This document shows, in pieces, positions 12,315 through 19,024 of a stretch of DNA of 25,583 nt. A program made the translations under genes and the position numbers. The DNA lies in IMG/VR virus record IMGVR_UViG_3300012006_000026, positions 1 through 25,583 of that record; one strand, 5' to 3'. Origin of the DNA: a virus. The notes below the pieces were generated by a model. It ran no database searches, had not been told where the DNA came from, and was given only the letters and a program-made list of their open reading frames with translations. Position 1 is the stretch's first letter. Each line of letters starts with the position of its first letter.

Positions 12315-12764
12315 TTAGTTTCCTTCCAAAATATGCAGATTGTTGCTTAGTTTTAATTTGTTGGTCGCATCAAACAACGCAAGTTCGTCAGGCTCGACTA
12401 ATTCGCTTTCGATATCGTCCAGATCGGTCTTATCGGTAACGTGAAACGTAATGCCGATAGAATCTTCAACCGCGTAGGTGACGCGCTTTGTGCCTGGCTG
12501 CGACTCTATAACATCACCCGCGTTCAGCGTTCGCATACCAGTTTCAGACCACGCAAGGATCTGGCCTTTAGCGCACAAGAACAGATGCGCCTTCTTGTGA
12601 ACCTTACCCACTATCGTCGTGCCAGCCGGTCTAAAGACTTTCCGGCAATACATGCCGCCAGCAAAATAATGCTCGGTCGGCAGCTCAATCTGCGGCATCT
12701 TGACCATTTCTGCTTGCAGACGATTAATCTGCTCCAGACTCGGCGGCAGTTCGATCAGGTTCAT
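12315..12764 (-). CDS. cupin-fold phage protein
   Basis: 149-residue protein starting MNLIELPPSLEQINRLQAEM. Residues 45-125 have the cupin beta-barrel pattern: FAGGMYCRKVFRPAGT, VGKVHKKAHLFLCAKGQI, TLNAGDVIESQPGTKRVTYA, SIGITFHV. Single His residues (KVHKKAHLF) could be metal ligands, but the full cupin metal set is not obvious. Start 12764 is chosen for its ATGA overlap with the preceding gene; a longer frame from 12872 is within that gene. Cupin proteins occur among virion genes of many podoviruses; whether this is structural or enzymatic is unknown. Confidence 0.68.
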   Translation of the reverse strand: MNLIELPPSLEQINRLQAEMVKMPQIELPTEHYFAGGMYCRKVFRPAGTTIVGKVHKKAHLFLCAKGQILAWSETGMRTLNAGDVIESQPGTKRVTYAVEDSIGITFHVTDKTDLDDIESELVEPDELALFDATNKLKLSNNLHILEGN

Positions 12765-13336
12765 GCGCTTACCTGAGAGACGGTAACAATAATTGAAGGA
12801 GCAGCCGGGATAGATGGGGAAGTTTGCGCCGCAATGTATTTGATTGAAGTAGTCGCAATGCTTGTAGACCAATAAAACTGTATGTAATCGAAAGCATTTA
12901 AGCTCAGCACGTAATTAATCGCAAATATAGTGTGGCCGTTGTCCACGCCATGCTTGGCCGGTACAGAGACTAAACTAGCGGTATTTGCTACATTTGATCC
13001 GTTTTTCTGTATCCAAACATAAACGTCGGATACAGATGCCGCGGTATTCATTAATTGAATGCTAAATTGAAAATTATAAACGCCGGTAGCTTGGCAAATA
13101 ATTTGAGACGTTACATTGCCCAAATAAATACCGTTTGATAAATCTGTCGTGTTTATTGTTATTGCAGTCGGCGTGTTGGCAACCGCCGTTTGCGATACCG
13201 TATCCGAAAATGCACCGTAAAATACAGTCCGACCCAAACCTAGCAAATAGAGCAGCCATTCCCGCGTCGGCCTGTTGCTTGACGTATCAAGGAACGCGGA
13301 TCGCGGTATGTTGATATTTGAAATGTTTGAAGCCAT
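12761..13336 (-). CDS. beta-sandwich virion protein (C1q/TNF-like pattern)
   Basis: 191-residue beta-rich protein with alternating strands typical of a jelly-roll: GVYNFQFSIQLMNTAAS, VYVWIQKNGSNVANTAS, HTIFAINYVLSLNAFDYIQF. The N-terminal part (NIPRSAFLDTSSNRPTREWL) looks like an attachment helix. Proteins of this shape occur next to the gp10-like gene in related phages and are thought to decorate the tail. It overlaps the gp10-like stop by one base (TAATG) and the cupin gene by ATGA. The fold call is by pattern only. Confidence 0.55.
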   Translation of the reverse strand: MASNISNINIPRSAFLDTSSNRPTREWLLYLLGLGRTVFYGAFSDTVSQTAVANTPTAITINTTDLSNGIYLGNVTSQIICQATGVYNFQFSIQLMNTAASVSDVYVWIQKNGSNVANTASLVSVPAKHGVDNGHTIFAINYVLSLNAFDYIQFYWSTSIATTSIKYIAAQTSPSIPAAPSIIVTVSQVSA

Positions 13337-15198
13337 TAATTTTCGCCCTGACTGGCTTTCAAGTTTGCAGAAATAATTACGGCCTTGATCGGATCCGTTA
13401 CGGTTACTTCAAACACCCGGTCCCGCGTCTGCCCAAGTCGGCGCCAGATTGCGCGGTTTTTGTAGGAGCCCGTCAGACCTATAGTGGTCCAGTGCTCGCT
13501 TGACCAGGTGCTGCCGCCATCGTCAGACCAGCGCAGCATTGCCTGCGGATCGTTACCCTGTCCGGTGGAGAGCCCAACGCCCGGCTGGAACTGGATCTGC
13601 AGCTCGTCAAAATACTGCCTTTGCAAGTCCGTCACGATATGCGGAGCGCGTCTCAGGCGTTTAATCGGCTGGCCGTTGTCCGTGTAGTTATTGCGGTCTA
13701 GTTTGTAAATAATGCCGTTTGCGTAGTCTCCAACCAGCACATTGCCCTGGAACAACGCGGCGCAATTACCTCGGCAACGGTGGTAGACGTTGTTGTTGTC
13801 GTTATAAAGCCACTTGTGCCACATCGTAGTGGTCGCGTCGTAAGCCCACGTTATATCAATCGTCGGGAAACTCACAACGTAGACTTCGTGACCCTCGAGC
13901 TGGTAAGTCCACGCCACGGCATCGCTGATCGTTTGCCCGGTAAGCGTGTTTTCTACCGCGTGCGTGCTAATACGGCTTGGCACATAACCATTCATCATCA
14001 CTATTTCAGCTTGGCCGCGAATGTTTCTAGACACATAAGCAAACGAATTGCCAACGCGAGCCATAGAAAAAACAGCCGCAATACCGTGTTGCGTCGAAGT
14101 TCCCGGTATGCGCTGAAAAGCAAAAGGCACGCTCCCAGTATCGACCCAAACCTCTGAGCTATTCTCGCCCAGCAGATAAACTTCGCGATGGTCGACTATG
14201 AGAGAAACCAGATTATCAGGAGCCCCGTCCTTGCTTGCAAAGCTCAAAGCCGCGGTGATCGGAGACAAAAGACCGCTGGCAGCCCATTGCTGCGTACTGG
14301 GACGGTTATAAACAAAATAGTTATCCACAATGTCGACTACGTTTGCGCCAGTAAAGGCTCCGTCAGTCGATGGAATAATTGTGTAATTTAGCCCGTAGAG
14401 CGTGCCGGAAGAAAACGTCTGCGAGTTGTTGATGGTATACGTGCCAGCGCCGCCAGTTCCCGTTCCTAGCGCCGTAATGATGGTGTTGGTAGTAACCCCT
14501 GCCCCGCGCACCGTCTGACCGACATATAGCGTTCCAGACGTTACCGCGGTCACGGTTAGCGTAGTTGTCGCCATTGAGCCGGTTACCACCGCGCCAACTG
14601 TGGCAGAATTCATGGTTTCGCTGGAAATCGTTTGCGAGTTGTTGACCGTATAAGTGCCGACCCCGCCCGTCCCGGTTCCGAGTGCGGTAATCACGGTTTC
14701 AGCAGATATTGACAAGCCAAACAACGCCTGGCTGATTGCTATCGTGCCGCTGGTCATTGCGGTGACGGTCAAAGTCGTGCCGGTAATTGACCCGGTAAAG
14801 ACCGCCGCAGCCGGGCTTGAAATGCGCCAGGTATAACGGTAGGTGCCATCAACAATGTAGACGTTTAGACCGTTATCGGTAATGCCCACAGATCCGGCAC
14901 TGCTGTTCAACACGCCGACGATGGTCGGAACAAGATTAGAAGTTAGAACGTAGATATACGGGCCACCTACCGCAACGATCTGAGCGCCACCAGATACCGT
15001 TCGCATCCCGCGCACTTCCTGCGAAGTTTGCAATACGACTTGAGAAGTCAGTCCAGGAGTCGGGTATAGCGCCACCACGCCGCGGTCGCCAGGCTGTTTA
15101 AGCGGATCTATTTCAGGAAAGTAATTAATGCACTCCTGCGCGTCCTGATAGATGCTGGGCGCCTCGTAGCTGGGACCGACAAAGCCGAAGTCAGGCAT
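13336..15198 (-). CDS. P22 gp10-like packaged-DNA stabilisation protein with two inserted repeat domains
   Basis: 620-residue tail hub/needle-attachment protein. The N-terminus ([20 protein letters not shown], then [11 protein letters not shown] and [16 protein letters not shown]) and the C-terminal body ([69 protein letters not shown]) match the P22 gp10 stabilisation family, which closes the portal after packaging. P22 gp10 is about 472 residues; the excess comes from residues 134-267, which hold two tandem 63-residue beta-rich modules. Coupled by TAATG to both neighbours. The core assignment is strong; the role of the inserts is unknown. Confidence 0.88.
14398..14586 (-). repeat. inserted beta module, copy 2 in gp10-like protein
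   Basis: Codes for residues 205-267: starts [20 protein letters not shown], contains [20 protein letters not shown] and ends SQTFSSGTL. Follows copy 1 after an eight-residue linker. Confidence 0.9.
14611..14799 (-). repeat. inserted beta module, copy 1 in gp10-like protein
   Basis: Codes for residues 134-196: starts [20 protein letters not shown], contains [20 protein letters not shown] and ends SQTISSETM. Same length and register as copy 2. DNA is clearly alike but diverged (by eye about three quarters identical in the best stretch, with TGCGAGTTGTTGA shared exactly). Confidence 0.9.
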
Positions 15199-16166
15199 TA
15201 CCGGAAACCCCCGTACATAATCCAGCCAGCGTCCTTCTGTCGGCCTGTAATTATCGCGTCAGGATAGCTGGCAACCATCGGCGGCTTCATGTTTGTGCGT
15301 TTCAACGTTGCTTTTGCCTGCGCTGCATAGCTTGTAATCATGCCGATCTGCGTCTGCGAGGCTTTCCCATACATAGGCATTAGCCTTTCGGCCAGGCACC
15401 AGCGCAGCGCCATGTTGTAGCCCTGCGGTAGCGCAAAAACATCGTTTTGCGTCTGGTAATTGCGAAACTGAGTATCGGTGAAGATATGAAGCTCACCCTG
15501 CGCCGGTGCTGGCCAAACAAAGATATTGCCGAGGATTTCGGCAGGCTGATAATAGATAGCCTTTGGCCACGGCCCGTTCATTGTTTTGAGACCAATGGAA
15601 TTGTATTGGTCAAAGTTTAAAACCGCGACCGGATAGTCCAGCCCACCACCAATTATCGGAGCGCCGTTAGCGGTTGTTGAGATGCGAACATAGGCTGAAG
15701 TCAGGCTTAAAGGTCGCTGGTAATAAGCCGAAACCGTCGTGCTGGACGCGGTTTGACTTGGCGTTATCGTATAAGTCCCGACCTCGTTGACGTTGCCGCC
15801 AGCGCCTGTATTGAAGCCCACGATGGTCGTGCCGGCTGTGATGCCGGTTCCAGACAGCGTTTGACCAATAGCAATAGCGCCAGATCCGATAGCGGTGACG
15901 GTCAGTGTCGTGCCAGATATTGACCCTGTAAAGCTGGCGCCGATCTGACCGCCTGGACCAATGGTGTATTGAGTCTGATTATTCGTGGTCGTAAATATGA
16001 TCTCGGTCTTGTAATAGACCATCATGCCCTCGTTGCTCCACTGGTCAAGCATGTCGTTGAGCATGTCAAATGCATCCTGCGAGGCTTCAGGACTAGGCGT
16101 TTCTCCCGCCGCCAGCGCACCAATATCTTTTAGTGCGCGGCTGATGATATCTATGGGCATTGTCAT
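15198..16166 (-). CDS. P22 gp4-like tail accessory factor with one inserted repeat domain
   Basis: 322-residue head-to-tail adaptor. The N-terminal helix block ([40 protein letters not shown]) and the later [40 protein letters not shown] and GYNMAL region match the P22 tail accessory factor family. P22 gp4 is 166 residues, but relatives of BPP-1 type are longer. Residues 79-145 are a beta module related to the two in the gp10-like protein, lying between YTIGPGGQI and [11 protein letters not shown]. The gene ends in TAATG with the gp10-like gene. It would bind the portal base and receive gp10. Confidence 0.87.
15732..15932 (-). repeat. inserted beta module, copy 3 in gp4-like protein
   Basis: Codes for residues 79-145: starts [20 protein letters not shown], contains [17 protein letters not shown]; four residues longer than the gp10 copies in the Gly-rich turn ([10 protein letters not shown]). 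Same motif order as copies 1 and 2. Confidence 0.88.
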
Positions 16167-16451: not shown

Positions 16452-16794
16452 CCCATGCTTTCAATTCTTCGTCCCACGCATACATTTTTCCATCAACAGG
16501 CATCGGAGTGGGAGCTTCCCACCGACAAGTCTGTTCGCTCAGAACCCATGACTGATACGGTTGCGGAGCGATAAACGCGTCACGCGCTGCGTCGTAAGAG
16601 TAGCCAATTCCGGCATAATTCTTACGCATCTTGCCGTTGTAGCTGGTCTGCTTCCAATCGCCACCAAGCAAACGCTCACAGAACGCAGCGCCGATATGCT
16701 CTAGTTCAACGCCTTCTGCGTTTGCAGTATCCGCATTGCCGACCACGATCACTTGAATGACCAGACCATTTTCTATTTTGGCGAAATGGCTCAT
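16432..16794 (-). CDS. small conserved phage protein, tail-associated (120 aa)
   Basis: 120-residue protein from MSHFAKIENGLVIQVIVVGN. It contains WKQTSYNGKMRKNYAGIGYS, YDAARDAFIAPQPYQSWVLS, and ends with a WEAPTPMPVDGKMYAWDEE block. This family is widespread in marine and freshwater phages next to tail-fibre genes; I know it only as uncharacterised or as a putative tail assembly chaperone. Start 16794 is chosen for its ATGA overlap with the adhesin gene; the longer frame to 16821 would run nine codons into it. Confidence 0.72.
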   Translation of the reverse strand: MSHFAKIENGLVIQVIVVGNADTANAEGVELEHIGAAFCERLLGGDWKQTSYNGKMRKNYAGIGYSYDAARDAFIAPQPYQSWVLSEQTCRWEAPTPMPVDGKMYAWDEELKAWDVQLEN

Positions 16795-17642
16795 ATCGTA
16801 ATGCTTCCGGAACCCGTCCATTTGTAGACCCGGTAGCCGCCAGCCACGGTAATCGTCGGAGAGCCGGTTGTGGACGTTGCAGCAGGGTAGGTATCCGCGT
16901 AACGAATAATTACAATGCCTGACCCGCCAGCACCGCCAGCACTACCGCCACCACCACCGCCGCCGCCAGTGTTGGCCGTTCCAGACGTTGCTGGAACAGT
17001 AATACCAACATTACCCGCACCACCACCGCCATTGCCGCCAGTTCCCGGCGTATTCCCTGTAACGGAATTGCCACCACCACCACCGCCGCCGCCATAGAAA
17101 GTTGCCGATCCCGATATTGACGATGAAAGGCCAACGCCGCCATTGCCGCAAGTAGACGTAGGTGACGCATCAACTCCATTACCTCCAACCGCACCAGCAC
17201 CACCACCGCCGCCACCAGCCCTAGCATTTATACTGGCAAAATTACCAGAACCACCATTGTTGCCTTGCCCTGACGGTGTTGCAGTTCCTCCCGCAGTTGT
17301 TCCAACACCAGCACCGCCGCCGCCACTACCGCCGTTGCCCCCAGTGTTGCCGGTAGGTGCATTGCTGCCATACCCGCCGCCAGCAGACGTTATGGTTGAA
17401 AACGCCGAATCCACACCAACCGTTCCGTTTGCCGCAGTTCCACCTGGTCCACCACCGCCAACCGTTACCGTCAAAGCAACGCCAGCAGCAACCGCAAACC
17501 CGCTGGCAGTTCTGTATCCACCCGCACCGCCGCCACCACCCGCAAGACTACCGCCCCCGCCGCCACCGGCAACAACCAAATACTCAACCGTTGGCGTTGC
17601 ATTAACACCAGTCGTTAAAAAGAAATTCTTAGCGGCAAACAT
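16791..17642 (-). CDS. glycine-rich tail adhesin
   Basis: 283-residue protein. After a short N-terminus (MFAAKNFFLTTGVNATP) come EYLVVAGGGGGGS and about 200 residues of glycine-rich loops (GGGGGAGGYRTASG, GNGGSGGGGAGVG, FYGGGGGGGGNS), ending in GGSGIVIIRYADTYPA and GGYRVYKWTGSGSITI. This is the known glycine-rich phage fibre-tip domain, related in type to polyglycine-sandwich adhesins, and probably binds the host receptor. Start at 17642 overlaps the tail-fibre stop by one base; a longer frame to 17759 lies inside the fibre gene. The repetitive coding DNA creates long proline-rich reading frames on the other strand that are not genes. Confidence 0.83.
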   Translation of the reverse strand: MFAAKNFFLTTGVNATPTVEYLVVAGGGGGGSLAGGGGGAGGYRTASGFAVAAGVALTVTVGGGGPGGTAANGTVGVDSAFSTITSAGGGYGSNAPTGNTGGNGGSGGGGAGVGTTAGGTATPSGQGNNGGSGNFASINARAGGGGGGAGAVGGNGVDASPTSTCGNGGVGLSSSISGSATFYGGGGGGGGNSVTGNTPGTGGNGGGGAGNVGITVPATSGTANTGGGGGGGGSAGGAGGSGIVIIRYADTYPAATSTTGSPTITVAGGYRVYKWTGSGSITI

Positions 17643-19024
17643 TAAGGTGTGTAACCTTGAGCGATTGAGCCATACCAATTTGTACCGTCGGCAAGAAATG
17701 TCAGAATATCCATTTTGCCTGCGGTTGCGGTAATTGTTGGTGTGCCAGAAGTTCCCCATTTAACCGGAGGGCCGCTTACTCCAAATGTTGCCGTTCCGTT
17801 GCCGGTAGCGGCAGCTTGTTTAAGCAGCAAAACAAAAGACTTGCCAGCAGTTGCAGTTGGCATGGTAAACGCGCAAGCGGTAGAAGCGGTCAAGGTAGCG
17901 GTCTGCACCGTTCCGTTAGTCAATACAAAAGTCGATGCAGTTGTCACCGTTCCTATTGCAACCACCGATTCAACGTAATTTGTGACGGTTGGATTGTTAA
18001 CGGTTGGGCTGGTATCCAGCACCATCTTGCCGGTTCCAGTAACCGCGTTCGTCAGCGTCACGCCGCCGTAGGTGATAGCGCCTGTTGATGTCAGCCCAGC
18101 GGTGCTAAGAACACCAGTGCTAGGGTTAAAGCTCAGTTTCGTTGAGCTTGTATTGTTCCCGGTGATCGTGCCTGTGGTCACGCTCGACAACAGCGGATAA
18201 CGAGTTGCATTTGTTGTCGTGTCATCAGTAATCGTAATGCCGGCAAACGGCGTAGTCCAAGTCGGAGCGCCAGCAGTGGCAGACGTAAGAACCTGACCAG
18301 TTGTGCCGGCCGCAGTGAAAGCGTAGGCAGTGCCGGTCCCGTAAGGCACAGCACCCGCGGTTGGTGTAGCCGTTCCAGCAGTGCCGCCTAGATTGATCGC
18401 AACCGGGCTTGTCAGGCTAAATACAGATCCGGCTAGGGTTAGCCCGGTTCCTGCCGTATAAGATGTCCCGCCGCTAAACTGCGTGAAATTGATAGCAGTA
18501 ACGCCTAGCGTGCCGCCTGCGTTGCTGGTGCAGACCCAGCCGGTGTCGGCAAGAGTAGTGCCGGTCTCAATGAACGTGAACGCCCCAGGAACTTGCGCCC
18601 ACGTACTCATGTCTGTGGATCTTGCCCACGCGCCAGCGGCAACAACATAGATGCCATTTTCCGCGGCCGCTGTTTGATTCTTAACCAGACAACGATCACC
18701 AGCAACAAGCGCAATACCGTCTACAGTCTGCGTGCCTGATAGCGTAATGTTTCCAGTCGTGCTGGCAACAACAGAGTCTTTGATATCCAGTCCCTGCGCT
18801 ACCGCGTCGACGTACGCTTTATTTGTAATATCCAGCGGATTAACAGGCGTAGCGGCTATCGTGCCACTCGTCAGCGTAGCCACGCCAGAAATAGGCGCAG
18901 AGAAATAATCGCCAGCAGGACCGACAAACGTAACTATCGAATGATACTGATCGAAGATGCCCTGAACGGGCACGATGTTGACAGTCGTTGTCAGCGCTGT
19001 GCTGTTGCTGTTGGTCGTACTCAT
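17642..19024 (-). CDS. tail fibre protein
   Basis: 460-residue beta-rich fibre. Residues 60-80 (NPLDITNKAYVDAVAQGLD) and 81-186 (VVASTTGNITLSGTQTVDGI, LVAGDRCLVKNQTAAAENGI, TGWVCTSNAG, INFTQFSGG) form a fibre domain common to many phages, followed by repetitive Thr/Gly-rich shaft (KLSFNPSTGVLSTAGLTSTG) and a C-terminal knob-like region (GKMDILTFLADGTNWYGSIA). It immediately precedes the glycine-rich adhesin gene with TAATG overlap, so the two probably assemble together as shaft and tip. Confidence 0.84.
   Translation of the reverse strand: MSTTNSNSTALTTTVNIVPVQGIFDQYHSIVTFVGPAGDYFSAPISGVATLTSGTIAATPVNPLDITNKAYVDAVAQGLDIKDSVVASTTGNITLSGTQTVDGIALVAGDRCLVKNQTAAAENGIYVVAAGAWARSTDMSTWAQVPGAFTFIETGTTLADTGWVCTSNAGGTLGVTAINFTQFSGGTSYTAGTGLTLAGSVFSLTSPVAINLGGTAGTATPTAGAVPYGTGTAYAFTAAGTTGQVLTSATAGAPTWTTPFAGITITDDTTTNATRYPLLSSVTTGTITGNNTSSTKLSFNPSTGVLSTAGLTSTGAITYGGVTLTNAVTGTGKMVLDTSPTVNNPTVTNYVESVVAIGTVTTASTFVLTNGTVQTATLTASTACAFTMPTATAGKSFVLLLKQAAATGNGTATFGVSGPPVKWGTSGTPTITATAGKMDILTFLADGTNWYGSIAQGYTP

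Follow-up and report, generated by a model that had tools for sequence, protein, structure and literature searches.

A promiscuous small beta domain inserted into two tail-connector proteins of a P22-like podovirus lineage

Two adjacent tail-connector proteins of a P22-like podovirus carry three copies of one domain of about 63 residues, placed as clean insertions into loops of conserved tail machinery. The same module recurs in capsid, sheath, baseplate, neck and fibre proteins, and is thus a promiscuous accessory domain of virions. In the lineage studied here, its simplest history is one insertion into the gp4-like adaptor and one insertion of a pair into the gp10-like hub, and it may provide a multivalent surface of weak contacts on the tail exterior. 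The stretch of DNA analysed (hereafter the window) is the IMG/VR virus record IMGVR_UViG_3300012006_000026, which comprises 25,583 bases.

According to profile matches, the minus-strand late genes of the window are those of a P22-like podovirus, including a portal (phrog_156), a scaffold (phrog_8865), a major head protein (phrog_283) and a DNA ejection protein (phrog_598), together with the two module-bearing connector genes. The first of these encodes a gp10-like head-closure (Hc3) or packaged-DNA stabilisation protein of 620 aa with two modules (13336..15198, minus strand), which matches phrog_578 (E 3e-103) and PF11134 (E 4e-8, above the cut-off). In hmmsearch, its core matches the solved P22 gp10, Pam1 and Pan3 chains with E values of 2e-14 to 4e-33, and by this core profile the protein is assigned to the P22 gp10/head closure Hc3 group. 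The second encodes a gp4-like tail adaptor of 322 aa with one module (15198..16166, minus strand), which matches phrog_12985 (E 2e-45) and the SU10 adaptor family PF24175 (E 1e-7, above the cut-off). Its predicted fold resembles P22 gp4 and T7-type adaptors: the core of the model aligns with P22 gp4 at Z 14.8 over 107 residues, and the model aligns with T7/N4-type adaptors at Z about 10–11 over 170–217 residues, i.e. over the helices plus the beta-domain. Profile matches and the modelled helix bundle together place this protein among the P22 gp4/SU10-type tail adaptors.

The neighbouring genes include, directly upstream of the gp4-like gene, one for a 322-aa glycine-rich protein (16791–17759, minus strand; PF21722 Gly_rich_2, E 7e-21; phrog_2295), and one for a 460-aa protein (17642–19024, minus strand) that matches both the head-decoration family phrog_2647 and the tail-fibre family phrog_11518. 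Adjoining gp10 is the gene for a 191-aa protein (12761–13336, minus strand) that may be a small fibre or spike head; its C1q-type match is weak and lies under the cut-off of Pfam (E 0.003).

A sequence-only reading of the window had proposed three copies of one beta-rich module in these two proteins, and open reading frame coordinates together with a search of the record confirm their positions. The gp10-like protein contains copy 1 at residues 134–196 (14611..14799, minus strand) and copy 2 at residues 205–267 (14398..14586, minus strand), and the gp4-like protein contains its copy at residues 79–145 (15732..15932, minus strand). When the record is searched with one copy, exactly three places are found (E 7e-33, 3e-18 and 9e-13). 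The three copies share about 62–65% protein identity, and their pairwise alignments score 13–18 s.d. above 2000 composition-preserving shuffles, none of which reaches half the real score. The modules consist of about 50% threonine, serine and glycine, compared with 25% in the gp10 core, and are almost uncharged, with a median of 1–2 charged residues. Also as proposed, the gp10-like protein is about 150 residues longer than P22 gp10, exceeding the solved P22 chain (472 residues) by 148.

The module is predicted to fold on its own. With two flanking residues on each side, gp10 copy 1 is modelled by AlphaFold2 from 85 sequences at pLDDT 97.8 and pTM 0.84, as a small all-beta domain whose first and last strands are long, in agreement with the idea of a separate, self-folding unit. 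Within the predicted structure of the gp4-like protein, the module has a pLDDT of 77–94. Among solved structures, the isolated module fits best to chain 1 of PDB 8eci from Arthrobacter phage Bridgette (Z 6.9, rmsd 1.8 Å over 59 residues, 24% identity), to which Foldseek assigns a probability of 1.00 but an E value of 0.075. Bridgette has dimeric cement proteins that bridge capsomeres (PMC13033339), and this chain is presumably one of them. It is a separate chain of 124 residues rather than an insert, and no sequence match to it was found. The next matches are a tail-tube chain of phage Mystique (Z 5.6) and the N-terminal barrels of F1-ATPase (Z about 5); Z values of 5–7 may reflect just a common arrangement. 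The matches listed are other small beta barrels with no Ig entry among them, an absence that excludes nothing.

The domain family appears to be uncurated. Scans of 45 module copies against Pfam and NCBIfam, and PDB sequence searches with the module profile and a single copy, yield chance-level matches only. All 45 copies match a stretch of phrog_21413 (function unknown) and phrog_38233 (tail fibre protein), but these are long whole-protein families, and no model exists for the module alone.

We mapped the insertion borders by aligning both window proteins with those of 12 annotated phages, which yielded sharp borders against module-free homologues. In the gp4-like proteins of phages L166 and L168–L173, only about 3–5 residues stand between the motif (Y)T(I/L)G-x-x-G and the next RP, whereas in the window and in phages L163 and L164 a module lies between the two. 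The gp4 module splits YTIGPGG from RPL, as had been suggested, and the whole insert spans approximately residues 74–150 (15717..15947, minus strand). The gp10 insert, including linkers, spans approximately residues 128–271 (14386..14817, minus strand) and separates the two strands of a hairpin (RYTWRIS/YTIIPS) that are joined by about 3 residues in all 11 usable homologues; the protein of phage L167 is too divergent to place. In a profile alignment, this point falls near residues 120–126 of solved P22 gp10, and canonical propeller topology suggests that it is the outer hairpin of a propeller blade. These homologues include L163 and L164, at 59–64% identity, yet the gp4 module is present in both phages. 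An unrelated insert of about 40 residues occurs in another loop, after GVGL, in the gp10-like proteins of L163 and L173, indicating that the gp10 hub tolerates inserts at a second site. The adaptor of Xanthomonas phage PBR31 (L165) also has an insert in the same loop as the gp4 module, but the module profile matches it only at E 0.01–0.02 in a search of eight proteins, and we do not claim homology.

We then counted modules across related loci. Each viral-contig scan contributes at most its best 80 loci, so the counts hold for this sample and are no measure of frequencies in nature. Among 233 distinct full-length gp10-like proteins, 110 have no module, 106 have two, 15 have three and two have four, with lengths of 463–565 aa for module-free and 618–836 aa for module-bearing members. 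None of the 233 contains a single module, for which one ancestral insertion of a pair is the only explanation on offer. The 242 sampled gp4-like proteins divide into 29 without a module, 201 with one and 12 with two, and in the sampled loci gp10 modules are confined to those whose gp4 also bears a module.

In a quick maximum-likelihood tree of the gp10 core, built without bootstrap and after removal of the modules, a single branch (SH-aLRT 98) separates the 62 module-bearing rows from all others. Module presence requires a single change on this tree, compared with about 43 for shuffled labels. These 62 rows are nested among 103 rows, in which the gp4 module is present in all 97 members with a readable gp4; no loss of it was seen among these 97. 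The simplest history suggested by these sequences is thus one gp4 insertion, then the entry of a pair into gp10 as one event, and later further gains. The earlier notion of a module "inserted three times" holds for the number of copies, but the copies in the window are more simply explained by two events. A further adaptor lineage (L130), 38% identical overall with the module included, carries the module in the corresponding loop, possibly through an independent insertion. A tree built from the short modules themselves has poor resolution and points to no donor of the copies. In close pairs, pN/pS is 0.16–0.17 for the modules and 0.11–0.13 for the cores; these are rough ratios with synonymous sites near saturation, and they point to purifying selection on the gp4 and gp10 modules.

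Beyond the two connector proteins, relatives of the module are encoded by at least 368 stretches in viral contigs and, in a search with the three window copies, by 48 stretches of genome contigs from bacteria and archaea. The proteins that carry the module match tail sheath (phrog_205/DUF3383), baseplate wedge (phrog_6/Baseplate_J), neck terminator (PF23961), minor head (PF23982) and cement (PF22758) proteins, as well as capsid, tail-fibre and spike families. The expectation that similar units occur in many phage structural proteins is thus borne out. The module is also present in a few bacterial proteins that have RHS, Big_1 or laminin-G domains, and predicted viral structures (BFVD) add a tip attachment protein J and an HK97-type major capsid protein. 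Its predicted fold also appears, at 36–48% identity, in collagen-repeat proteins of Indivirus ILV1, a giant eukaryotic virus (A0A1V0SCQ2 and A0A1V0SDM6_2). In phage records, tblastn with a single 63-aa copy gives no match at 1e-3, and the consensus at E up to 10 gives only partial matches of about 25 aa in five records; this low yield is probably due to low-complexity masking of the T/S/G-rich sequence. A plasmid search returned one partial match only.

The reuse of accessory domains across virion proteins is a known phenomenon. About one in four tailed phages has Ig-like folds on its structural proteins (Fraser et al. 2006, as cited in PMC6867891). Similar to the module, phage Ig-like domains are small beta domains reused in capsid, tail and fibre proteins and present or absent among relatives, and the module shares their promiscuous occurrence. 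It differs from them in being inserted into internal loops of connector proteins, in gp10 as a pair, and a Pfam scan of the 45 copies finds no Ig-family match above chance level (best Big_6, E 0.099, in two members). A parallel in placement is phage SU10, in which extra beta domains are inserted into the same two kinds of protein, the adaptor and the propeller hub; in SU10, four Ig-like domains sit between blades 2 and 3 (PMC9509320). As far as our tools show, the openly accessible journal literature does not describe such a module placed in the two connector proteins of a single lineage.

How might the module act? We propose that, in a lineage of P22-like short-tailed phages, this small all-beta domain entered surface loops of two tail-connector proteins. 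The gp4-like adaptor would have received it once, and a hairpin of the gp10-like hub would have received a pair in one step. If the tail assembles like that of P22, with 12 gp4 and 6 gp10 subunits by homology, it would display about 24 module copies. Homology also suggests that they face outward, since the gp4 module lies in a beta-domain corresponding to the outer fibre-dock region of T7 and SU10 adaptors. Through many weak contacts, the modules could then keep the tail close to the envelope of the host or to the glycans on it. We favour this role by analogy with phage Douge, whose capsid and tail tube bear Ig-like domains that bind host glycans (PMC13033339); glycan binding is a feature of the Douge domains and would extend to the module by analogy only. 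We give this adhesion reading about an even chance. In its favour are the mostly exposed nature of the other host proteins, the clean insertions, the confidently predicted fold, the presence of 2–4 copies in gp10 and 1–2 in gp4, the purifying selection and the lack of loss in the clade. Against it, the module's matches include no known glycan-binding fold, the modules are neither faster-evolving nor swapped, as host-range determinants often are, and they are almost uncharged; moreover, the closest solved match comes from a capsid entry, where cementing is at least as likely.

The main rival, which we consider possible though rather unlikely, is that the modules serve as structural cement or as a fibre dock, bracing the adaptor–hub junction or clamping fibres or spikes with no host contact. 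According to published structures, a fibre-dock beta-domain is present in the adaptors of T7 and SU10 but absent from those of P22 and Sf6 (PMC9509320, PMC6702177), and the gp4 module sits in such a dock-like domain. In T7 and SU10, the fibres attach to the dock of the adaptor and to loops of the hub, and the Ig-like nozzle domains of SU10 touch one another as well as the fibre dock (PMC9509320). The Bridgette capsid match and the absence of loss in the clade would also fit an assembly role. However, the domain occurs in sheaths, capsids, necks and bacterial proteins without any such shared partner, and module-free relatives at 59–64% identity assemble the same hub. An improbable alternative is that the module has no selected role and is a neutral or hitchhiking stuffer, soluble and tolerated because the loops are permissive; insertion in a hairpin loop and promiscuous spread would suit it, but the purifying selection, to which keeping the fold soluble could contribute, and zero loss among 97 readable members are hard to explain in this way.

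Diversification had also been suggested. In one such reading, the module would be a cassette swapped between phages or copies to alter host range, as its presence in many unrelated virion proteins might imply. For gp4 and gp10 we regard this as very improbable. The gp10 tree shows a single gain, and module identity rises with core identity while staying slightly lower (0.70–0.73 at a core identity near 0.8). Copy 1 of gp10 is closer to copy 1 of other phages (0.69) than to copy 2 of the same protein (0.56), which gives no sign of homogenisation or ongoing swapping. Together with the purifying selection, these comparisons argue that the copies were inherited vertically after one insertion each and are not being shuffled. 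Finally, that the regions are integral to the gp4 and gp10 folds is next to impossible: the module is always present in its own clade, but the module-free gp10-like and gp4-like relatives counted above contradict the prediction that all homologues carry it, and the domain is predicted to fold alone.

Returning to the adhesion reading, its boldest form, which we offer as speculation, would be that an undescribed, very widespread, charge-poor small beta-barrel is inserted in capsids, sheaths, necks and tail hubs, and that in this lineage about 24 copies ring the portal–tail junction as a second, non-fibre attachment surface. Few accessory domains are known that phages reuse across virion proteins, and the finding adds to them a family for which no curated model exists. 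It also supplies a natural series, running from module-free tails to tails with the module in gp4 only, then in gp4 together with a gp10 pair, and then with gp10 triplets, in which the effect of an added domain is testable in otherwise similar tails. With a profile of the module, many phage proteins whose function is unknown would gain an annotation for part of their length.
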